Below are positions 1,082 through 10,592 of a stretch of DNA of 64,000 bases, piece after piece; the first letter of the stretch is position 1; every line of letters begins with the position of its first letter. The translations under genes were made by a program, and so were the position numbers. The notes beneath the pieces are model-generated. The model was not told the DNA's origin, did not search any database, and saw only the letters and a program-made list of their open reading frames with translations. Origin of the DNA: a bacterium (GTDB lineage: Bacteria; Oederibacteriota; CAKKQC01); NCBI GenBank assembly GCA_919901855.1, contig CAKKQC010000060.1:1-64000 (forward strand), read 5' to 3'.

Positions 1082-1122
1082 GGAGAGGTGGCCGAGTGGC
1101 TGAAGGCAGCTGCCTGCTAAGC
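1082..1122 (+). repeat. attL: 5' tRNA-Ser fragment (41-bp direct repeat)
   Basis: Identical to 9175-9215. It covers the acceptor 5' strand, D arm, anticodon loop and the first part of the 3' anticodon stem of tRNA-Ser. It then breaks into element sequence (GGACCCGCC), so no tRNA can fold here. In this model the 5' flank is the chromosomal one. Confidence 0.95.
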
Positions 1123-1259
1123 GGACCCGCCGACAGTTCAGAACCCCAAGCATCCCCGACAGATTCGCGAGAACCCTTGAAGAATCAACCGTCGGGGGAT
1201 TCTGCTGAGTCCGCCGAGCCGGGTCAGGTCCGGCCGATCCCGCCGATTCCGTCCGGAAA
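1123..1259 (+). other. Left end of element: open frame continuing the integrase frame
   Basis: There is no independent gene here. In the reading frame the integrase uses through the shared 41-bp core, this stretch is open for 46 codons and stops at TGA 1261-1263, inside the left GTGAGTCA repeat. After excision the two ends join, and the integrase would gain this Pro/Ser/Glu-rich tail in place of its present three-residue ending. Confidence 0.6.
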
Positions 1260-1279
1260 GTGAGTCAAATTGTGAGTCA
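1260..1279 (+). repeat. Left arm-type site: GTGAGTCA-N4-GTGAGTCA
   Basis: Two direct GTGAGTCA octamers are separated by AATT. The same pair recurs at 9103-9122 near the other end in the same orientation, and a single copy lies at 4453-4460. Paired octamers just inside both ends of a tyrosine-recombinase element are what arm-type integrase or accessory-protein sites look like. The assignment is inferred from position and repetition. Confidence 0.65.
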
Positions 1280-1296
1280 CCCCGTGGGACAGAAAG

Positions 1297-1770
1297 GTGG
1301 CACCGAAAGTGGCAACGACGAAGAAGACTGACGATGGGGCGACTGCGCCGGACACGACGCTGTACCACCCCGAGAAGTATCTCAGGTATGACCTCAAGGA
1401 GCCTGCGCTCGAGGAGATCGGGGTCACGGCGAAGCTGCCGGCTCGGCTCCTGAGGCCGCTGCCGGACCCGTTCACCCCTCTGATCGTCCAGGTGCAGAGG
1501 GCTCGGGCTGCGCTACAGCGGGCTGGGAGGGCCGCTCCGCCTGCGGTTGGCGCTCCTGCCCAACCCGCCACGCCTGCGGCCCGCTGGGGGCTCATGGGCG
1601 CGATCACGCGGCAACGGAGGGAGCTCGCCATGCGGAGGCTGCGCCCATCGTGGATGGGGAAGGCCCCCTGGGGTCCCCTGCGGTCGACGCGAGACTCCCG
1701 ACTGCTCGGGCGGGGGCGTGTTCGGACACTCTCTGTGCCTCCTGGCTCGCCGAAGCCTCGGGGGACCTGA
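1297..1770 (+). CDS. Possible hypothetical protein of the element
   Basis: An open frame of 157 codons from GTG, preceded by a purine-rich AGAAAG. The first 60 residues (acidic/aliphatic, e.g. LYHPEKYLRYDLKEP) look protein-like. The rest is rich in Arg, Pro and Gly, as expected of a chance frame in GC-rich DNA. No family is recognised. Its stop is three bases before the next possible start at 1774, which slightly favours a real gene pair. Only the 5' portion may be coding. Confidence 0.3.
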   Translation: MAPKVATTKKTDDGATAPDTTLYHPEKYLRYDLKEPALEEIGVTAKLPARLLRPLPDPFTPLIVQVQRARAALQRAGRAAPPAVGAPAQPATPAARWGLMGAITRQRRELAMRRLRPSWMGKAPWGPLRSTRDSRLLGRGRVRTLSVPPGSPKPRGT

Positions 1771-1773
1771 GGG

Positions 1774-2094
1774 GTGGGTGTCGGACGACCTCCCGCCGCA
1801 CCGTACCGGTACCTGCCGAGGACGGCGACGGAGGCGGAACGGGTTGAGCTTGAGGAATGCCAGCGCATTGGGCTCCATGAAGGTGAGCGGGCGTTCTGGA
1901 AGTGGGCAATCTTGCGCCATGGGCGAGGGATTGGAATCAGGGAGTTCGCTCGACTGTCCGGAATCCCGACAGGCACCGTGCTCTCCTGGGCGAGACGCTA
2001 CGAATGGGTGGAGACCTTCAACACGCTGGAGCCGCTGGCGCTGTACTTGGAGTCCGAGCGGGGACGCCCGAAGGGGCCGGTCGGCGCGGTGTAG
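1774..2094 (+). CDS. Small HTH-containing hypothetical protein
   Basis: A 106-residue frame from GTG, starting three bases after the preceding stop. Residues 50-80 read GIREFARLSGIPTGTVLSWARRYEW, a plausible helix-turn-helix: a helix, the turn SGIP, and a recognition helix with TVLSWARR. This resembles the N-terminal HTH of phage small-terminase or transposase-like proteins. The rest has no recognisable domain. DNA binding is inferred from that segment alone. It may be a regulator or packaging-like protein of the element. No large terminase accompanies it. Confidence 0.45.
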   Translation: MGVGRPPAAPYRYLPRTATEAERVELEECQRIGLHEGERAFWKWAILRHGRGIGIREFARLSGIPTGTVLSWARRYEWVETFNTLEPLALYLESERGRPKGPVGAV

Positions 2095-2309
2095 CCTCCT
2101 CCGGGACGGCAATCGGGGTTGCTGCATTCGGGGTGGCGTTGGGGCTCATTCATCGCCCGCGCGGGCCTGGCGGTCCCTCGCTTCAGCCAGGCGGGACAGG
2201 TGGCGAATGCGGGGCCAGGGGGCAGAACTACCAATCATCGTGGGGGTGAACACGCCTTCTCGCGTTGCGTGGCTGGGTCGGCTACCGGCTTTGGGGGGCG
2301 ACGAGTGCT
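2095..2309. other. Gene-free stretch between convergent element genes
   Basis: About 215 bases between the plus-strand HTH frame and the 3' end of the minus-strand HNH gene. I see no convincing gene, no long hairpin with a T tract and no tandem repeat. Confidence 0.5.
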
Positions 2310-3089
2310 CTATCTCCACCGGGATCGGAAGCCTCTGCGCTGATCGGCAGGGCGATACTTGATGCGATTGTGTCCGCCGCCCTTTTCCCTGTGGCAGATG
2401 TGGCACAGGGTTACGAGGTTGTCCATCGCGTTGTTGCCGCCTTGGTGCAACGCCAGCCTGTGGTGCGCATGAAGATTCCTCACACGGCGGACAAAGCCAT
2501 GCGGCCACCCGCACTGCTGGCATATTTCTCGATCCCGCTGCTTGGCAGCTTGGCTCCGGTCACTCCAGTCGGGCGGATAGCCGGGGTACGAAACGCAGAA
2601 GTGGTCCCATGAGGCGAGGACTTCTTGTGTGGCCGTGGCTGCGGCGGCATCCAGTACTTGGAGACGCTCTCTCTGCTGGTCGACTAGTCCAGACTCGATC
2701 TTCTTCCGTGCGTTGTCGACCATGTTGCCCAAGCATCCCGCGAGCCAGAGGGTGGCAAGGCCCGCTAGGCCTGATATGAGCATGGTGCCGATGGCGCTCT
2801 CGGTTTCCGCTCTCCGTGGCGAGTATGCGGCGACGCAACCGGCTATGCAGGCTACTCCTCCGAGGAGAAGACCCAGAGCTCCGAATGACTTCTGCAGAAA
2901 GGTGGCGATGGCCAGGAGTGGCGACGCTTTGACGAGCCTCTGGGTGTGGACCGAGATCTCCACGCGCAGGTTCTGTGCTCCGGTCAGTGCTTCCGTATGA
3001 CGATTCACGAGAGCGCGGTAGTAGGGATGCTGCGCGTACTGGGGGAGGGGGCCTTGCGGGGTCGTGGGCGTGCACGGCTCTTCACGCAT
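2310..3089 (-). CDS. Membrane-anchored HNH endonuclease
   Basis: A 259-residue protein. Residues 1-65 are a soluble N-terminal part. Two hydrophobic segments (about 69-88 and 100-122) are separated by a short positively charged loop. Residues 125-185 form a helical linker. An HNH nuclease module ends the protein: CQQC 190-193, HAHH 207-210, N224 and CHICH 229-233 followed by a distal His. This matches the four-Cys zinc-supported HNH pattern with the H-H-N catalytic core. HNH proteins cut double-stranded or nicked DNA; placing one at the membrane is unusual and suits a sensor or effector that acts on incoming DNA. It lies 20 bases after the zinc-ribbon gene and is probably co-transcribed with it. 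A defence role is inferred from architecture and location only. Confidence 0.85.
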   Translation of the reverse strand: MREEPCTPTTPQGPLPQYAQHPYYRALVNRHTEALTGAQNLRVEISVHTQRLVKASPLLAIATFLQKSFGALGLLLGGVACIAGCVAAYSPRRAETESAIGTMLISGLAGLATLWLAGCLGNMVDNARKKIESGLVDQQRERLQVLDAAAATATQEVLASWDHFCVSYPGYPPDWSDRSQAAKQRDREICQQCGWPHGFVRRVRNLHAHHRLALHQGGNNAMDNLVTLCHICHREKGGGHNRIKYRPADQRRGFRSRWR

Positions 3090-3109
3090 CCTATCGGTCT
3101 CGTATGGGA

Positions 3110-3331
3110 CTACGGGGTGCGCCTGACGACAGAGAAGAACATTCTGATGAGCAGAACGAGGACTCCGCGGCCACCCTCCTTGCCCTGGCCGACTTCGGCC
3201 TCGGTCTTCCTTTGGGCGATGTCCCTAGCTGAGAGGTAGGTCTTCGCCATTCTTCCTTCCGCGAAGTCATAGCCGCAGTCGCAGCGCTGTGCCGAGGATG
3301 GATTCTCGAGATTGCAGTTCGGGCATTCCAT
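3110..3331 (-). CDS. Small zinc-ribbon protein, probably membrane-associated
   Basis: A 73-residue protein. It opens with a zinc ribbon, CPNC at residues 3-6 and CDCGYDF at about 17-23, a pattern common at the N-terminus of small bacterial membrane proteins. After a charged middle part it ends in a hydrophobic stretch (VLVLLIRMFFSVV) that could insert in the membrane. TAGAAT lies eight bases before the ATG (3340-3345), so the mRNA may be leaderless. The HNH gene follows after 20 bases on the same strand, and the pair forms a natural two-gene unit. The specific function is unknown. Confidence 0.75.
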   Translation of the reverse strand: MECPNCNLENPSSAQRCDCGYDFAEGRMAKTYLSARDIAQRKTEAEVGQGKEGGRGVLVLLIRMFFSVVRRTP

Positions 3332-3498
3332 CTACAGGCATTCTACGCCTAGGCGGGTCTTTGGGTGGGCAGTTCCGGTGGGGGGGGGCGGACGGGATGG
3401 GCCGCGGCCGACCGCGCGCTCCCCGACCGAGCCGAGCGCCCGTGGTTACCGCGGCGACCGGGCGCCCTGACCCTTCCTGCGCCCGGGCGCCGACGGGA

Positions 3499-3516
3499 AC
3501 CGTAACCTGTTACGGT
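3499..3516. repeat. Inverted repeat ACCGTAAC-N2-GTTACGGT
   Basis: Perfect 8-bp arms around CT, followed directly by AACC so that GGTAACC is also formed. It shares the GTAAC/GTTAC core with the larger palindrome 42 bases downstream, which suggests related protein-binding sites. Confidence 0.75.
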
Positions 3517-3557
3517 AACCGCCTGGCGGCGAGCGAGGGCCTGAGGAAAGGTGCAGG

Positions 3558-3582
3558 TTCCGGTAATGGTCCATTACCGGAA
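3558..3582. repeat. 25-bp near-perfect palindrome
   Basis: Arms of 12 bases (TTCCGGTAATGG and its exact complement) surround a single T. This is the most extensive perfect dyad seen in the element. It is not followed by a T tract and lies in non-coding DNA, so a dimeric protein-binding site (operator, origin or partition type) is likelier than a terminator. Confidence 0.8.
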
Positions 3583-4049
3583 TCAGGCGAGGGCAGGGAC
3601 GGAGGCGCGGAGGCACGCGCAGGCGGGTTCCTGCGCGAGCGGAGCCCTGAACCGGCCGAAGGCGAGCCCGGCGAGCCGAGCGCCGGTTGAGGGCGCAGCG
3701 GTGCCGACCGCCGACGAGGTGCCCGGGGCGGGGGCCACGGGCACCGACCCTACCCGAGCCGGTGCGCCGGTGCGCGCCACTGGGATTCCCGCACGGCGCG
3801 CATGACGATGGCCTGAGCCGCCACGGGGCGCGAGGCTCCCGATCCTGCGCGCTCCCGGCAGCGCGGCCTGGCGGGCGGGGGGGGCTGGCTCCGGAGCGCT
3901 GGCATGAGCGGCGCGGGGCCGCTTCGGCCCGATGCGCCGCGAATGACGGCGCGACCTAGCGGAGGGCGCGAGCGGTGCGCATCGTTGCACCGCGAGTGCC
4001 CGACGCTGTGTGCGAGAAGGGGCCTGCCTGGGCCGTTGGCTCTCGCAAT

Positions 4050-4436
4050 CTAGGGCTTCTTCAACCTCCGGAGAATCTCTGCGTTCTGCTCGCGGATGGA
4101 CTCGAGATTGGCACTGTCTGCTTCTGCCCGGGCCTTCTCATCTTCCCTGTCGTCCTCTGCGCGGCCTTCCTTGATGAGCTCGAGCTGTTCCGCTGGTGTG
4201 AGGCGATCCCAGAACAGGCCGGAGGTGCGGCCCTCTTCGCGCATGCGTATGTGCTTGTCCCTGGCACATGCTTCCCTCTCGACGGGGTCCCAGATGAACC
4301 CGAAGAGACCGGGCGCGCACGGATCTTGGATGCTGGGCACGTTTCTGGACGAGTTGTCGCCCCCCGTCGTGGCACATCCTGAGGAGCCGATCACGAGCGC
4401 CACGAGCCCTGCCCGGGCGATCTGCCTATCTGTCAT
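4050..4436 (-). CDS. Small lipoprotein with C-terminal coiled coil
   Basis: A 128-residue protein. The N-terminus is a lipoprotein signal with lipobox IGSSGC at about residues 16-21. The middle has a WDPVERE...CARDKHIRMREEGRTSGLFWDRLTPAEQLELI segment, and the last 45 residues are Glu/Ala/Arg-rich and probably coiled-coil. AAGGAAGG before the ATG is a good ribosome-binding site. It is divergent from the XRE regulator and shares the palindrome at 4485-4504, so it is probably controlled by it. Lipoproteins expressed from integrated elements often alter the host surface (superinfection exclusion type). That role is inferred here. Confidence 0.75.
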   Translation of the reverse strand: MTDRQIARAGLVALVIGSSGCATTGGDNSSRNVPSIQDPCAPGLFGFIWDPVEREACARDKHIRMREEGRTSGLFWDRLTPAEQLELIKEGRAEDDREDEKARAEADSANLESIREQNAEILRRLKKP

Positions 4437-4484
4437 TGGCCTTCCTTCCGGCGTGAGTCAGCGTGCCGCGCCTTGCTCCGAGGA

Positions 4485-4504
4485 TACGCGGTCTTTACCG
4501 CGTA
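4485..4504. promoter_or_regulatory. Operator between lipoprotein and XRE genes
   Basis: Perfect inverted repeat TACGCGGT-N4-ACCGCGTA in the divergent intergenic region, 34 bases before the XRE start. Size and symmetry suit a dimeric XRE repressor. A GTGAGTCA octamer lies just to its left (4453-4460). Confidence 0.65.
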
Positions 4505-4537
4505 GGCAAGGCGGCGGTTCTCGTCAATCATGCACAT

Positions 4538-4750
4538 ATGCGGGAAGGCTCTTGGGAACGGGACCTCGGGCGATCCATCCGGCGGCGGCGGATGGCGAGG
4601 AAGCTGACGCTCCAGCAGGCGGCTGATGGGCTGGGCGTGTCGTTGCGCTGGTGGCAGGACTTGGAGAAGGGCTCGGCCATATCGGTCAGGACTCTGGTGC
4701 GGGTCGCTGCGTCTCTCAAGGTGCCGGCGTGGAGGCTTCTCAAGGGATAG
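4538..4750 (+). CDS. XRE-family transcriptional regulator
   Basis: A 70-residue single-domain repressor from ATG 4538: RRRRMARKLTLQQAADGLGVSLRWWQDLEKGSAISVRTLVRVAASLKVP is a classic five-helix XRE fold with recognition helix SLRWWQDLE. The frame is open further upstream, to 4463, but that would place coding sequence across the palindromic operator, so the internal Met is preferred. It probably represses itself and the divergent lipoprotein gene and may set the state of the element. It is convergent with the next gene, their 3' ends overlapping by 11 bases. Confidence 0.8.
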   Translation: MREGSWERDLGRSIRRRRMARKLTLQQAADGLGVSLRWWQDLEKGSAISVRTLVRVAASLKVPAWRLLKG

Positions 4751-5546
4751 CCTTCTCTGCCTTTGCTCTTCGGGCTGGTCGGCCAAAGATCCCCCTCAGA
4801 AGGTCGGCTTCCTCAAGGTAGGTCAGAATGGTCTTCGGCGCATAGCGTCCCCAGAGTCTTTCTCGATCCGCTGGGGGGATCGCCGCGAGGCCCCGCTCGA
4901 TGAACCTCCGACGATCGAAGATGTTGTCGCGATAGCGAGCGCGCCCTCTGTGCGCACGGCTCACTTCCCGGGACACGATCTTTCTAAACAACATCTGCAA
5001 TCTGGCGTACTTCTCCTGTGATTCTTCGAAGGCGGCACGACGCACTTCCGGAGACGCAATCCTACCGATCAAGGATTCATCCTGAGAGATCCGTGCCTCC
5101 GAAGCCTCGAAGTGGACTCGCCGCTCTTCCGGGGACATCACTCTCGAGGCTGCGTAGACTCCGGCATTTTGCACGCGCAAGTATGCGTAGCCTTCATCAT
5201 CGTCCAAGACCCTCTGCTTTCTGGCGTTCTCTGCACGAGTCGCGCGTTGCCGCGGGTCCGAGTGTGCTTCCCATTTCTTGAGCGTCCGGAGCTTCCCGCG
5301 TGCCCTTGGGGTTATCGGCATCTTCGAAAGGACCTCGTGCAGAACGGCCAGAGCCGTGACGTAGTCGATAGTCGACCTGAGACCTGTCGCGATCATGACC
5401 GCGCGAAGGACGGGCCACTTCCCGTAGTCTCTGCGCGCGCGGCCGAGGTGGCCCGAGACCGGTCGGCCGGGCCTTCCCCGAAATAATGCGCCTCCGTCCT
5501 TGTCCTGTGAGTGTTTATCGAGTGGCGAAGCTTGCGGTTCTTTCAT
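4740..5546 (-). CDS. Hypothetical protein with short internal repeats
   Basis: A 268-residue soluble, basic and Arg-rich protein that I do not recognise. It contains a repeated module of about 20 residues: RVMSPEERRVHFEASEARI followed about 23 residues later by RIASPEVRRAAFEESQEKY, and perhaps a third, decayed copy (KIVSREVSRAHRGRARY). Residues 225-260 (AIPPADRERLWGRYAPKTILTYLEEADLLRGIFG) form a helical C-terminal segment. Codons are visibly less GC-rich than those of chromosomal genes. The ATG lies inside the 5545-5568 inverted repeat, so transcription is probably controlled there. It could be cargo or a host-takeover protein. Confidence 0.65.
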   Translation of the reverse strand: MKEPQASPLDKHSQDKDGGALFRGRPGRPVSGHLGRARRDYGKWPVLRAVMIATGLRSTIDYVTALAVLHEVLSKMPITPRARGKLRTLKKWEAHSDPRQRATRAENARKQRVLDDDEGYAYLRVQNAGVYAASRVMSPEERRVHFEASEARISQDESLIGRIASPEVRRAAFEESQEKYARLQMLFRKIVSREVSRAHRGRARYRDNIFDRRRFIERGLAAIPPADRERLWGRYAPKTILTYLEEADLLRGIFGRPARRAKAEKAIP

Positions 5547-5568
5547 CGATTTCGGGCGTCAAATCGAT
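5545..5568. promoter_or_regulatory. Inverted repeat over a start codon (operator)
   Basis: ATCGATTT and its perfect complement AAATCGAT, eight bases apart. It overlaps the start codon of the minus-strand gene at 5546 and lies 54 bases before the RHH-like gene at 5622, so one dimer could control both directions. Ribbon-helix-helix proteins commonly bind such short dyads, which makes the neighbour's product a candidate. Confidence 0.6.
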
Positions 5569-5621
5569 AGTAGCAGAACATGGTCGCGGCGATGACGGTC
5601 GCGACCTGTAGGAGACGCGAC

Positions 5622-5801
5622 ATGGAAGAGCAGAGCAATGTGGGGCCTGTCCGGAGGACCCGCGCGGTGCGGGTGCCGGAGGGTGTTTGGAGGGCGATGC
5701 GGGTGGAAGCGGCCCGGCGGTGCATTCCGCTCTGGCAAGTGATTGGGGAGCGGCTGTGCAGGCGGAAGGAACGTGGCGGAGATAGCGGGGTGATGCGATG
5801 A
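5622..5801 (+). CDS. Small ribbon-helix-helix-like protein
   Basis: A 59-residue protein starting at ATG 5622, preceded by TAGGAGACGCGAC, a good ribosome-binding site. The short beta-like strand RTRAVRVPEGVWRAMRVEA and the following helices (CIPLWQVIGERLCRRK) resemble ribbon-helix-helix regulators. The fold assignment rests on this pattern only. The stop overlaps the next start by four bases (ATGA at 5798), opening a chain of overlapping genes that runs to the integrase. It may bind the palindrome at 5545-5568. Confidence 0.55.
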   Translation: MEEQSNVGPVRRTRAVRVPEGVWRAMRVEAARRCIPLWQVIGERLCRRKERGGDSGVMR

Positions 5802-6031
5802 GAAACGGGCGCCCCCTAAGTAGCGGGTTCCTAGGGCCACAATCGGACGCAGGATGCTGGCGGGTCGGGGAGGGGGCCTGCCCTGGATGCAGGTGCGCGG
5901 GCGCTTTGCGGTGTTGGGCTTCAAGGGATCTGCGCGGGATTCCATGCCGTGGCACGGAGGTGGCTGTGGCCCTTCTGGGCGAAGTGCTGGCCATGCCGAT
6001 GCGGTCGGGCGTGAGGCGGGTGAAGCCTTGA
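5798..6031 (+). CDS. Small Cys-containing hypothetical protein
   Basis: A 77-residue frame recognised mainly by gene geometry: its ATG overlaps the upstream stop (ATGA) and its own TGA overlaps the TTG start of the DUF3987-like gene (TTGA). Successive four-base overlaps on both sides argue that it is translated. It carries a Cys cluster (CWRVGEGACPGCRCAG) that could hold a metal. The residual doubt is that the downstream frame is also open back to 5854. The function is unknown. Confidence 0.45.
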   Translation: MRNGRPLSSGFLGPQSDAGCWRVGEGACPGCRCAGALRCWASRDLRGIPCRGTEVAVALLGEVLAMPMRSGVRRVKP

Positions 6032-7404
6032 CGCCCGAGGTCCTCAGGGCGGAAGCACTGGCCGTGCGGCGGGCGGGTCTCGGCTTGGGCGAGGCCCGGG
6101 CGGCGCTTCTCCTGCAGAATCATCGTGACGTGGAGCCCGTTGACGAAGCGGTCGTGCAGGCGACGGTGAGAGCTGCGTACGAGGAGCCGCCGCAAGCTCC
6201 TGCGTGTCTTTCCTTGGATGAGGCGGCGTTCCACGGAGTAGTCGGAAGGATCGTCCGCGCGATCAGCCCGACGACCGAGGCCTGCGACGCTGCCATCCTC
6301 TTCCAGGCGCTGGCGGCGGCGGGGAACGTCATGGGGCGCGGGACCTTCTACCAGGTGGAAGACTCGCCGCATCACCTGAATCTCTACGTCGTGCTCGTCG
6401 GCGCGACGGGGAAGGCGCGGAAAGGCACGGCCCTCAAGCGGGTGCTCCGTCTTGCTCGGCAGGCTGACGAAACGTGGGCGCTGGACCGCGTCCTGCCCGG
6501 GCTATCGAGTGGCGAGGGCCTCATCCATGCTGTCCGTGATCCGCGGGGAATGCCCGACGACAAGGATGGCGACGCGGGGGCGGCGGACAAGCGCCTTCTC
6601 GTGACTGAGGAGGAGATGGCTTCGGTTCTGCGTGTGGTGGGACGGCAGGGAAACATCCTCTCGCCGCTTCTGCGCCAGGCGTGGGACGGGGGGCGCCTCA
6701 ACACATTGACCAAGGGGAGCCCCGAGCGCGCCACCGACGCGCACATATCTGTCATCGGCCACATTACCCAGCAGGAGCTCCGCCGGGAGCTCCAACGGAC
6801 TGAGCAGGCCAATGGCTTCGCCAACCGTTTCCTCTGGGTGCTCGTTCAGCGGGCGCGGGTTCTTCCCGACGGCGGGGGACTCGCCGAGGAGAGCGCCAAT
6901 GAGCTGGCGGAAGAGCTTGCCGTGGCGATCCGGCGCGGGAGTGGTCTGGGCCGTCTGGTCTTCGACCAGGAAGCCGGGGATATCTGGCGGTCGGTCTACG
7001 GGGAACTATCCGACGGGAAACCCGGGCTCCTCGGCGCCCTCGTCGGGAGGGCGGAGGCTCAAGTGGTGCGGATTGCCACCCTCTACGCCGCGCTGGATGG
7101 TTCGGTCTGGATTCAGGTGCAGCATCTGCGTGCGGCGCTGGCGGTCTGGCGGTATGCGGAGGAGAGCGCTCGCCTGATCTTCGGGGGCTCCCTCGGCGAT
7201 CCGGCGGCCGACGAGACCCTTGAGGCGTTGACGGCACACCCGGAGGGCCTGACGCGGACCGCCATCAGCGAGATCTTCAGCCGTCATCTGTCAGCGACCG
7301 AGATTGAGCGTGCGCTGCAGGCGCTGTCTGCGGCGGGGAAGGCGAGGCGGCAATCCATCCCAACGGGTGGCAGGCCAGAGGAGCGGTGGTATGCGGTGCA
7401 GTAG
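6028..7404 (+). CDS. DUF3987-like primase/helicase-associated protein
   Basis: About 458 residues from TTG 6028. Residues 1-50 resemble the small helical domain found after primase domains. The core (about 70-330) has the family signatures GNVMGRG, LVGATGKARKGTALKRV (a degenerate P-loop region), GLSSGEGLI, EEEMASVLRVVGRQGN, LRQAWDGG, LTKGSP, HISVIGHIT and NGFANRFLW. Residues about 395-458 form a winged helix (GLTRTAISEIFSRHLS). Such proteins are common in integrative elements and phages next to replication genes. The exact biochemical role is not settled, and replication of the excised element is the likely job. The frame is open back to an ATG at 5854, but the TTGA overlap with the preceding gene favours 6028. 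Confidence 0.75.
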   Translation: MTPEVLRAEALAVRRAGLGLGEARAALLLQNHRDVEPVDEAVVQATVRAAYEEPPQAPACLSLDEAAFHGVVGRIVRAISPTTEACDAAILFQALAAAGNVMGRGTFYQVEDSPHHLNLYVVLVGATGKARKGTALKRVLRLARQADETWALDRVLPGLSSGEGLIHAVRDPRGMPDDKDGDAGAADKRLLVTEEEMASVLRVVGRQGNILSPLLRQAWDGGRLNTLTKGSPERATDAHISVIGHITQQELRRELQRTEQANGFANRFLWVLVQRARVLPDGGGLAEESANELAEELAVAIRRGSGLGRLVFDQEAGDIWRSVYGELSDGKPGLLGALVGRAEAQVVRIATLYAALDGSVWIQVQHLRAALAVWRYAEESARLIFGGSLGDPAADETLEALTAHPEGLTRTAISEIFSRHLSATEIERALQALSAAGKARRQSIPTGGRPEERWYAVQ

Positions 7405-7421
7405 CGATGGGGTGGGCTTCT

Positions 7422-7444
7422 TTCGCTTGGTTCGCTTCTTTCGC
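7422..7444 (+). repeat. Three 9-base-spaced TTCGC repeats
   Basis: TTCGC occurs at 7422, 7431 and 7440, and GCTTCTTTCGC is repeated exactly at 7416 and 7434. The cluster lies in the short gap between the DUF3987-like gene and the first HTH gene, just before a G-rich run. It could be a binding site for one of the small HTH proteins. Confidence 0.45.
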
Positions 7445-7547
7445 ATGCCATGCGTGGGGTGGGTGGGTGGGCGGCATTCCGACGGGTGGCTGGCGCTGTG
7501 CGAGGGCGAAACAAGCGAACATTGCGCGCGAAGGGCGGGCGCTGGAG

Positions 7548-7751
7548 GTGGCTGACGCGAGGCCGCTCCTGAAGCCGGCTGAGGTGGCCGCACGCCTGGC
7601 GGTCCCAATCCAGACGGTCTACGACTGGGCGGCGGCGGGACGGTTGGCGAGGGTCAAGTTGGGGCGAAACGTGAGATTCAGGCCGGAGGACGTCGAGGCG
7701 TTCATCGCGGGCAACCGGCAAGAGGCGCTTGACAAGGGCGGGGCGGTATGA
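7548..7751 (+). CDS. Excisionase-like helix-turn-helix protein 1
   Basis: A 67-residue MerR-like winged HTH of the excisionase type: LLKPAEVAARLAVPIQTVYDWAAAGRLARVKLGRNVRFRPEDVEAFIAG. The wing with the R-V-K-L-G-R-N-V-R-F pattern is characteristic. The frame is open upstream to 7386, but that part translates low-complexity Trp/Gly-rich residues over the TTCGC repeats, so GTG 7548 is chosen. It is probably a recombination directionality factor or repressor acting at the att region. Its stop overlaps the next ATG by four bases. Confidence 0.75.
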   Translation: MADARPLLKPAEVAARLAVPIQTVYDWAAAGRLARVKLGRNVRFRPEDVEAFIAGNRQEALDKGGAV

Positions 7752-7993
7752 GACAACACGAGACAGATATGGCTGACGAGCGGTACAGCGCGACGGAAGC
7801 GGCCCGGCGCCTTGGCATCGGCAGGGCGACGCTCTACCGCTGGATTGACCGGCGATGGATCACGAAGCCGGCCAAGGACTACAAGGGCGACCCTGTCTTC
7901 ACGGACGGCGACGTGGAGCGCATCCGCGCCTGGAAGGACCGGATCGTAAGGGAGAAAGCCGGGCGGGGGAAGGCGGGGCGCGATGCGGCATAG
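7748..7993 (+). CDS. Excisionase-like helix-turn-helix protein 2
   Basis: An 81-residue second MerR/excisionase-type protein: YSATEAARRLGIGRATLYRWIDRRWITKPAKDYKGDPVFTDGDVERIRAWKDR. The pattern is HTH, wing, then a helix with a basic tail. ATG 7748 overlaps the upstream stop, and the 3' end overlaps the integrase start by 11 bases, so the three are translationally coupled. Two different excisionase-like proteins in tandem before one integrase suggest that one acts in excision and the other in regulation; which is which cannot be read from sequence. Confidence 0.75.
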   Translation: MRQHETDMADERYSATEAARRLGIGRATLYRWIDRRWITKPAKDYKGDPVFTDGDVERIRAWKDRIVREKAGRGKAGRDAA

Positions 7994-9230
7994 GGTGTTC
8001 AGGCGGGGGAAGGTCTGGCACGCCCAGTACTCGGACCCCCGCACCGGTCGGACGGTCTGGCGGTCTCTTGGCGTGACGGAGAAGGGCCGGGCGAACGCGA
8101 TGCTCTCGAAGATCGTCACGGAGATTCGGGAGCACGGCTTCTTCGAGGACAAGCGTGAGGCTCAGGTGCGGTTCCGTGACTTCGCCGTGGACTATCTCGC
8201 TTGGGCGCACGCCAACAAGCGGTCTGCGAAGAACGACGAGATGTTCGTCCGCCGGTTCTGCTCGGAATGGGGGGACAAGTTGCTCACAGAGGTCACCCCG
8301 CACATGATCGAGCAGTACAAAGCCAAGCGGGTGCAGGAGCCGAAGCGCTGCGGCCGGGCCGGTGTGCTCGTCTCTCAGAACCACGTCAACCATGAGCTTT
8401 CCGTCCTGCGGGGGCTGTTCAACAAGGCGATTCAGTGGGGGAAGGCGCAGGTCAGTCCGATTCGGCACGTCAAGTTCTTCCGGGTCGATGACCGGCGCAT
8501 GGGGTATCTCGACCGGGGCCAGGTCCACGCCTTGCTCGCCGCCTGCGAGAATCGGCGGACACCGTACCTCCGCGCAATGGTTGTGATCGCGCTGGGGACG
8601 GGGCTTCGTCGGGGCGAGATCCTGAACCTGCGGTGGGAGGATGTCGACTACAAGGGCGGTGTGGTTCGGGTGCGGGAATCCAAGTCGGGGCGGAAGCGGG
8701 CCGTGCCGATGAACGAGGACGTTCTCGAAGCTCTCCGCTCCTGCGTGGCGCTTGAGCGGCTGGCGGGCGAGGTTCCACAGAGCGCCTTCGTCTTCTGCGA
8801 CCGGCAGGGCCAGCCGTACCGGGACGTCAAGAATGGATTCATCACCGCGAGGCGCAGGGCGGGACTGTCCTGGCTTCACTTCCACGACCTGCGGCACACG
8901 TTCGCCAGCCATCTCGTGAGTGCGGGGACGCCGCTGGAGGTCATCCGCGACCTGCTCGGGCACTCGTCCTACGCGATGACGCTTCGGTACGCGCACTTGG
9001 CACCGGACCGGAAGGTGGAAGCGGTCAACCGGCTCCCGGGGAGCTATCGGCCGGTGACCGAGGGAGCGGGGCGGGGGAATGGGGCCGGGAGCGCGACCCG
9101 AAGTGAGTCAAATAGTGAGTCACCTGCCTCGGGTGCTATCATTGAGCGAGCGGAAGTTGTTGGTATTCCTAAAGGGAGAGGTGGCCGAGTGGCTGAAGGC
9201 AGCTGCCTGCTAAGCAGTTGTTCGGGCTAA
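7983..9230 (+). CDS. int: Tyrosine recombinase (integrase)
   Basis: A 415-residue phage-type integrase. Residues 1-55 form an arm-binding-like N-terminus, 60-165 a core-binding SAM-like domain (ending VNHELSVLRGLFNKAIQWG), and about 180-350 the catalytic domain with GTGLRRGEIL (Arg I), SKSGRKR (Lys), HDLRHTFASHL (His-x-x-Arg), LLGHSS (His) and LRYAHL (nucleophilic Tyr). All catalytic residues are present, so it should be active. The last 60 residues lie beyond the catalytic fold, carry the right GTGAGTCA pair in their codons and run into tRNA-Ser, where the frame ends. In the excised circle the frame would stay open for 46 further codons instead. It is the last gene of the element operon. Confidence 0.95.
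   Translation: MRHRVFRRGKVWHAQYSDPRTGRTVWRSLGVTEKGRANAMLSKIVTEIREHGFFEDKREAQVRFRDFAVDYLAWAHANKRSAKNDEMFVRRFCSEWGDKLLTEVTPHMIEQYKAKRVQEPKRCGRAGVLVSQNHVNHELSVLRGLFNKAIQWGKAQVSPIRHVKFFRVDDRRMGYLDRGQVHALLAACENRRTPYLRAMVVIALGTGLRRGEILNLRWEDVDYKGGVVRVRESKSGRKRAVPMNEDVLEALRSCVALERLAGEVPQSAFVFCDRQGQPYRDVKNGFITARRRAGLSWLHFHDLRHTFASHLVSAGTPLEVIRDLLGHSSYAMTLRYAHLAPDRKVEAVNRLPGSYRPVTEGAGRGNGAGSATRSESNSESPASGAIIERAEVVGIPKGRGGRVAEGSCLLSSCSG
9103..9122 (+). repeat. Right arm-type site: GTGAGTCA-N4-GTGAGTCA
   Basis: Same octamer pair, spacing and orientation as 1260-1279, differing only in the spacer (AATA versus AATT). It lies 52 bases before the right att core and inside the 3' coding part of the integrase gene. 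Confidence 0.65.
9137..9142 (+). promoter_or_regulatory. Element-borne -10 box for tRNA-Ser
   Basis: TATCAT lies 32 bases before the intact tRNA, matching the 33 bases between TATACT and the truncated copy at the left end. The element thus appears to supply a substitute promoter. The -35 region is weak by eye, and readthrough from the integrase operon is also possible. Confidence 0.5.
9175..9215 (+). repeat. attR: 41-bp direct repeat within intact tRNA-Ser
   Basis: Identical to 1082-1122. It ends in the 3' anticodon stem. Strand exchange is expected in the anticodon loop, a known sub-location for tyrosine recombinases. Confidence 0.95.
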
Positions 9231-9265
9231 TACCTGGACCCAGGGTTCGAATCCCTGCCTCTCCG
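9175..9265 (+). tRNA. tRNA-Ser(GCT)
   Basis: The acceptor stem pairs GGAGAGG with CCTCTCC, with discriminator G. The anticodon arm GCTGC-CTGCTAA-GCAGT gives anticodon GCT (serine AGC/AGU codons). A long variable arm follows, typical of tRNA-Ser, then a T arm with GGTTCGAATCC. CCA is not encoded. It is a hybrid gene: the 5' half comes from the element and the 3' half from the chromosome. Seryl-tRNA synthetase lies just downstream on the opposite strand. Confidence 0.95.
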
Positions 9266-9305: not shown

Positions 9306-10592
9306 TCATTTGAGGATCGAGAGCCCGCCCATGTAGGGACGGATTGCGTCAGGAAGAACCACGCTACCGTCGGCCTGCTGGAAGTTCTCGAGCAGGGCCG
9401 CGAAGGTGCGGCCCACGGCGAGGCCGGAGCCGTTCAGGGTGTGGACGAGCTCGGCCTTGCCACCCGCCTCGCGGCGGAACCGGATCTGGGCGCGGCGGGC
9501 CTGGTAGTCGGAGCAGGTCGAGACCGAGGCGATCTCGCGATACTGCCGCTGGCCGGGCATCCAGACCTCGGGATCGTACGTCTTCATCGAGGCCTGGGAG
9601 ATGTCGGCCGTGCACAGGAGCATGAGCCGGTAAGGAAGCTCCAGCGCCTTGAGGACGGCCTCCGCGTGCCCGACCATCTCCTCGTGGGCCGCGATGGAGT
9701 CTTCGGGCCGCACGAACTGGAACATCTCGACCTTGTCGAACTGGTGGACCCGGAGCAGACCCCGCGTGTCCCGGCCCGCCGCTCCGGCCTCCCGGCGGAA
9801 GCTCGGGAGGTACCCCACGTACTTGACCGGCAGCCGCGCCCCGTCCAGGATCTCCTCCCGGTGGATGTTCGCGATGGGCACCTCGGCGGTCGGGTTGAGC
9901 CAGAGATCGTCGGGAGCGGGGATGTGGTACATCTCCTCCCGGAGATTGGGAAGCTGTCCCGTGCCCTCGAGGGACTCGGACCTGACCAGGATCGGCGGCG
10001 AGACTTCCGTGTACCCGTGCTTCGTCGTGTGCAGGTCGAGCATGAACTGGATCAGCGCGCGCTCGAGCCGGGCGCCCTGCCCGGTGAAGAGCGTGAACCG
10101 GGCGCCCGAGATCTTGATCGCGCGCTCGAAATCGACCAGCCCGAGCGACTCGCAGATGTCCCAGTGCGGCTTCGCGGTGAAGTCGAACTCCCGGGGCGTG
10201 CCCCACTTACGGACCTCGACGTTGTCGTCGCCGGACTTGCCGACGGGAGTCGTCTCGTGCGGCATGTTCGGGACGAGCATGACGAGCTCGTGATAGGCGG
10301 CCTCGGCGTCGGCCTGGACCTTCGCCGCTTCGACCATGGCGGCGTCCATGCCGCGCATCGAGTCCATGAGGGCCTTCCCCTCGGGGGAATCCGCCGTGCC
10401 CGCCTTCTTGAGCTTCCCGAACTCCTGCGCGCTCGTATTCCGCTTCGCCCGCAGTTCGTCGGCCCTGATCTGGGACACGCGCCGGGCGTCGTCGGCGGCC
10501 TTGAGGGCCCCGAACTCGACCTTCGCGTTCCGCTGGGTCAGCATCTCCCGGACCTTGTCCGGCGAGTCCTTCAGGAGCTTCGGGTCGATCAT
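9306..10592 (-). CDS. serS: Seryl-tRNA synthetase
   Basis: A 428-residue class II synthetase of normal length. Residues 1-100 form the antiparallel coiled-coil arm that grips the long variable arm of tRNA-Ser (MIDPKLLKDSPDKVREMLTQR onward). The catalytic core has motif 2 (SFRREAGAAGRDTRGLLRVHQFDKVE) and motif 3 (NGSGLAVGRTFAALLENFQ). It charges tRNA-Ser and makes seryl-tRNA for selenocysteine where present. It follows argC with a four-base overlap on the same strand and is convergent with the tRNA-Ser it serves. Confidence 0.97.
   Translation of the reverse strand: MIDPKLLKDSPDKVREMLTQRNAKVEFGALKAADDARRVSQIRADELRAKRNTSAQEFGKLKKAGTADSPEGKALMDSMRGMDAAMVEAAKVQADAEAAYHELVMLVPNMPHETTPVGKSGDDNVEVRKWGTPREFDFTAKPHWDICESLGLVDFERAIKISGARFTLFTGQGARLERALIQFMLDLHTTKHGYTEVSPPILVRSESLEGTGQLPNLREEMYHIPAPDDLWLNPTAEVPIANIHREEILDGARLPVKYVGYLPSFRREAGAAGRDTRGLLRVHQFDKVEMFQFVRPEDSIAAHEEMVGHAEAVLKALELPYRLMLLCTADISQASMKTYDPEVWMPGQRQYREIASVSTCSDYQARRAQIRFRREAGGKAELVHTLNGSGLAVGRTFAALLENFQQADGSVVLPDAIRPYMGGLSILK

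Follow-up and report, generated by a model that had tools for sequence, protein, structure and literature searches.

Does the integrase of a small integrative element register, through its own C-terminus, whether the element is inserted or excised? The question is raised by an element of ~8 kb, which occupies positions 1123 to 9174 of the 64,000-nucleotide stretch of bacterial DNA analyzed here (the window) and whose insertion point is the 5' half of a tRNA-Ser(GCT) gene. The element is bounded by a 41-bp direct repeat (GGAGAGGTGGCCGAGTGGCTGAAGGCAGCTGCCTGCTAAGC) at 1082-1122 and 9175-9215, the two copies being 100% identical with 0 mismatches. As expected of an integrative element at a tRNA site, the intact tRNA gene is present at one end and the identical tRNA fragment at the other, in the same orientation. 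The gene adjoining the targeted tRNA-Ser (9306-10592), recognized from its protein sequence, presumably encodes a seryl-tRNA synthetase. The positions of the features discussed are compiled in Table 1. In addition, the element encodes an HNH endonuclease (2310-3089). No gene for a phage structural protein stood out among the element proteins searched, so the element may be a satellite or a small integrative element.

Table 1. Features of the element and its attachment sites, in window coordinates
Feature	Positions	Strand	Remarks
Left att core copy, 41 bp	1082-1122	+	Displaced 5' fragment of the original tRNA-Ser
Open tail, 46 codons plus stop, predicted to follow int in the circle	1123-1263	+	Corresponds to the spacer between core and P' arm
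Candidate P'-arm pair GTGAGTCA, 12-bp pitch	1260-1279	+	Contains the tail stop TGA (1261-1263); frame differs from that of the P-arm copy
Primase/helicase-like protein of the element	5854-7404	+	PHROG matches weak; no match in Pfam search
Second HTH_17 protein, excisionase-like	7386-7751	+	
Small HTH protein (excisionase/MerR-like)	7748-7993	+	Overlaps the int start by 11 bp
Tyrosine integrase gene (int), integrated-state reading, 415 aa	7983-9230	+	Phage_integrase domain at residues 176-341
Candidate P-arm pair GTGAGTCA, 12-bp pitch	9103-9122	+	Within the int coding sequence, translated as SESNSES; 52 nt separate its end from the tRNA
Right att core copy, 41 bp	9175-9215	+	5' part (first 41 nt) of the intact tRNA-Ser
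Intact tRNA-Ser(GCT), restored by the element	9175-9265	+	Contains the end of the int frame (9228-9230)

The integrase belongs to the tyrosine recombinase (phage integrase) family. PF00589 matched residues 176-341 (E 5.6e-41), the conserved R, H-x-x-R and Tyr were present, and R209, H301, R304, H327 and Y336 were invariant across 32 aligned sequences. The integrated form was modeled with AlphaFold, using 31 relatives. Confidence was high up to about residue 355, and residues 361 to 415 were disordered; conservation in the alignment likewise stopped at about residue 360. Both alternative tails begin at residue 412, ~55 residues past the folded domain, and would extend as disordered segments past an already complete catalytic domain.

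The first-pass annotation had proposed that the int frame passes through the 41-bp core and that the encoded C-terminus hence differs between the integrated and the excised state. At the level of sequence this proved correct, and phage Mx8 provides a precedent (PMC6070905). In the integrated state, the frame reads S-C-S-G-stop after the core and ends at 9228-9230, so that the "five codons" counted earlier comprise four residues and the stop. Joining the ends in silico extended the frame by exactly 46 sense codons (GPADSSEPQASPTDSREPLKNQPSGDSAESAEPGQVRPIPPIPSGK), the number that had been claimed, followed by the TGA at 1261-1263. The predicted lengths are 457 aa for the circle form versus 415 aa for the integrated form, and the tail gained in the circle is Pro/Ser/Glu-rich and hydrophilic, ending in ...IPSGK. 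It had been considered that the crossover point might exclude the shared frame; because all 41 of the 41 core bp are identical, the crossover position cannot alter the predicted frame. Thus, as in Mx8, the attP core lies inside the int frame, which stays open beyond the core in the predicted circle. Of the three reading frames across the core, two are closed by TGA and TAA, so crossing of the core is approximately a one-in-three event.

The openness of the tail was that expected by chance. When the 300 bp after the core were subjected to 5,000 dinucleotide-preserving shuffles, 31% of the shuffles were open for at least 46 codons (P = 0.31), and the same was true for 46 to 61% of start points chosen arbitrarily within the element or the window. 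Moreover, the tail was devoid of a GC3 coding signature. Its GC content by codon position was 0.67/0.63/0.61, versus 0.66/0.44/0.86 in the int body, and its GC3-GC2 difference fell within the lowest 2% of 46-codon stretches in the element's genes and the lowest 6% of those in host genes. This measure replaced a codon-usage log-likelihood test, which was dropped as uninformative: relative to a background of matched composition, it gave a negative score even for the catalytic domain. Weak GC3 alone is no proof of non-coding sequence, since GC3 was also weak (lowest 9%) in int residues 352-397, the 46 residues that the element encodes immediately ahead of the core.

Close relatives of the integrase (>55% identity) were found neither in IMG/VR (searched with the single protein) nor in GTDB contigs, the class (2 genomes) or the phylum (45 genomes). 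The best matches in GTDB contigs showed 38 to 48% identity. Distant relatives (33 to 53% identity) were numerous and were notably present in 36 of 384 genomes in the phylum of genome G049 (locus L010; Candidatus Omnitrophota). For 10 relatives both element ends were located and the circle was rebuilt; the repeats measured 23 to 84 bp and mostly comprised tRNA nucleotides 1 to ~41. In all 10, the integrase C-terminus was the same in the integrated and the circular state, because the stop precedes or falls inside the core. Carrying the int reading phase on through the P' side of these junctions led to a stop within 5 to 32 codons in every case (10/10), which contradicts the expectation that the tail is conserved in related elements. 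It should be considered that the relatives' sequences are AT-richer than the window, and stops in their spacers are likelier. Judged from these sequences, an open tail is peculiar to the window's element among the testable elements. The suggestion that the tail acts as a built-in sensor of integration state is left unsupported by the state-invariant C-termini of all rebuilt relatives, the chance-level openness and the missing GC3 signature.

Including the window, int was located directly upstream of and co-directional with a tRNA gene in 37 loci, which together cover Leu, Arg, Lys, Thr, Pro, Met, Phe, Ala, Val, Gln, Cys and Ser isotypes. In 32 of them the int stop was positioned between -40 and +30 nt relative to the tRNA 5' end. 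The frame stopped before the tRNA in 25 loci and entered it in 12 (window included), where it mostly ended within the first 41 nt; in several loci (L130, L131, L135, L149 and L153) the stop was the tRNA's own TAG near position 8 to 10. Only in the window, L006 and L129 did the frame run past tRNA position 41. The frames of L006 and L099/L129 read through the whole tRNA, and by their sequence these C-termini may be state-dependent as well; the left ends of these elements were not found (the L006 contig begins inside int, and no copy was present in the 7.9 kb that precede int in L129). In the phylum of G049, loci L097-L126 and L127-L165 represent a frequent integrase group that is co-directional with, and directly upstream of, tRNAs of many isotypes. 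Given this position, each insertion replaces the tRNA 5' half together with its upstream region.

Some further observations concern the sequences ahead of the tRNA. On the native side, a -10-like TATACT is present at 1043-1048, 34 nt ahead of the displaced tRNA fragment, and an extended -10-like TGCTATCAT (9137-9142) inside the int coding sequence ends 33 nt ahead of the restored tRNA. With these motifs, the element may provide a substitute promoter for the tRNA at a matching distance. In a family-wide promoter test, the best -10-like hexamers in int 3' ends exceeded their own shuffles in only 20 of the 37 loci. In several loci (e.g., L128, L134 and L146), the tRNA is immediately preceded by an inverted repeat of the TAACTC...GAGTTA type. 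The window's own genome contains a second, partial integrase (L002:1-520) at the edge of contig C68; it is 53% identical, its stop lies 22 nt ahead of a tRNA-Leu, and it probably belongs to another element of the same kind.

The extent of the tail coincides with the layout of the attachment site. The GTGAGTCA pair has only two occurrences in the 4.68-Mb genome, even if 2 mismatches are allowed, and these are at the element's two ends; the pattern was absent from the viral contigs searched. Tandem pairs of 7- to 8-bp words with an 11- to 12-bp pitch were detected in all 11 rebuilt attP sites (the window and 10 relatives). In these 11 sites the P-side pair was inside the int open reading frame, 52 to 78 nt ahead of the tRNA, and the P'-side pair was 107 to 137 nt beyond the core or tRNA position 41. 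The pair score was above every shuffle in 10 of the 11 sites, while that of L140 merely equaled the null maximum; L127 showed a weaker match. The words were TGGACAC in L135, L141, L142, L145 and L150, TTATCACA in L156 and L158, and TTGGCACC in L133. These paired repeats look like arm-type integrase sites, and the GTGAGTCA pairs flank the core on both sides, as would be expected for a heterobivalent (lambda-type) integrase. Because the P-arm pair lies inside the int coding sequence, the relatives' conserved C-terminal peptide DT[F/I]WT, and its counterpart SESNSES in the window, is the translation of putative DNA-binding sites. Since the P and P' copies of the window are in different frames, it is the DNA, rather than the peptide, that is preserved. 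The spacer between core and P' arm corresponds exactly to the 46-codon tail, and the tail's stop is the TGA within the P' repeat. No report of paired arm sites within int coding sequences across this integrase group was found in the literature searched.

We consider it about 80% probable that the tail is a side-effect of an attP packed into the int 3' end and not a sensor. The attP layout and the arithmetic of the frame were directly observed, as was the conservation of this layout among relatives. The element encodes a tRNA-targeting tyrosine integrase that carries attP in the 3' end of its own gene, arranged as putative P-arm sites in the last coding stretch, the core (tRNA nt 1 to 41), a spacer of ~135 bp and putative P'-arm sites. 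Most relatives have a stop ahead of or within the core, so that their protein has the same end in either state. Without such a stop, the frame of the window's element would drift into the tRNA when integrated, adding 4 residues, and into the P' spacer in the circular state, adding 46 residues until the TGA of the arm repeat is reached. Most likely, both tails have little or no regulatory role.

An alternative is that the tail swap is a functional switch, i.e., that the circle and the integrated form differ in recombination activity, specificity or stability. The predicted C-terminus does differ between the states, the window's tail is Pro/Ser/Glu-rich and hydrophilic, and Mx8, whose attP is part of int and whose integrase is reported to change in specificity when integration replaces the int 3' end, illustrates that extra C-terminal residues can matter (PMC6070905). 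However, we regard a switch as improbable, as an open tail was conserved in 0 of the 10 rebuilt relatives, its openness matches chance, and it bears no coding signature. BLASTP gave no meaningful match between the Mx8 and the window integrases (E 0.22), and function can thus not be transferred by homology.

State dependence could also arise at the level of mRNA, since maturation of tRNA 5' ends by RNase P and rescue by tmRNA are established biology. A cut by RNase P at 9175 of an int-tRNA read-through transcript would then yield a non-stop int mRNA, cleared by trans-translation, while in the circle, which has no whole tRNA, the message would keep a stop supplied by the integrase's own arm-binding site; int has indeed no stop ahead of the tRNA 5' end and enters the tRNA in 12 of 37 loci, but the stop before the tRNA in the other 25 argues that such an effect is not a family design, and we judge it very unlikely.

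Taking the tail as a by-product of attP packing keeps a sequence prediction that holds, that of a C-terminus differing by state, apart from a function that is appealing but weakly founded. A more general design also emerges, in which a tRNA-targeting integrase group keeps half of its attachment site in its own gene end. Functions deduced from the conserved C-termini of such integrases could therefore mislead.

The anatomy of the element is that of the tRNA islands described with Islander, in which an intact tRNA marks one end and a 5' fragment the opposite end, with a crossover in the anticodon region; there, 159 of 3,919 islands had a 5' tDNA fragment, and the Mx8 and SSV integrases were named as extending across attP (PMC4383910). 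In the archaeal SSV-type "suicidal" integrases, the recombination site lies inside the integrase gene, which is split and disrupted (PMC8371274), whereas the window's element encodes the whole catalytic protein in both states. In mycobacteriophages BPs and Brujita and in prophages of M. abscessus, attP is inside a coding gene and integration alters the C-terminus of the product (PMC9934374). In this integration-dependent immunity the altered gene is a repressor whose circle form carries an ssrA-like degradation tag, whereas in the window it is the integrase; an ssrA-like C-terminal tag (ending in AA), looked for in the predicted circle form, was not found. The closest likeness is to Myxococcus phage Mx8, where attP is also inside the int coding sequence and integration makes a new int 3' end with altered specificity (PMC6070905). 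Its sequence record further contains a repeat pair, TGTGACAGCGG, spaced at an 11-bp pitch within the 3' part of the int coding sequence. In both systems, a gene for an HTH protein (uoi in Mx8) overlaps the int start. In work by Tojo in 1996, Mx8 reportedly swaps 112 aa for 13 aa, and the C-terminal region is said to be needed for activity; in the window's element the predicted swap is 46 aa for 4 aa, and nothing in this analysis points to a need for its tail. Functional use of the altered C-terminus in the window's element is unlikely. An integrase that reads across attP and thereby acquires an altered C-terminus is a known principle, of which this element is at most a further, accidental-looking member.
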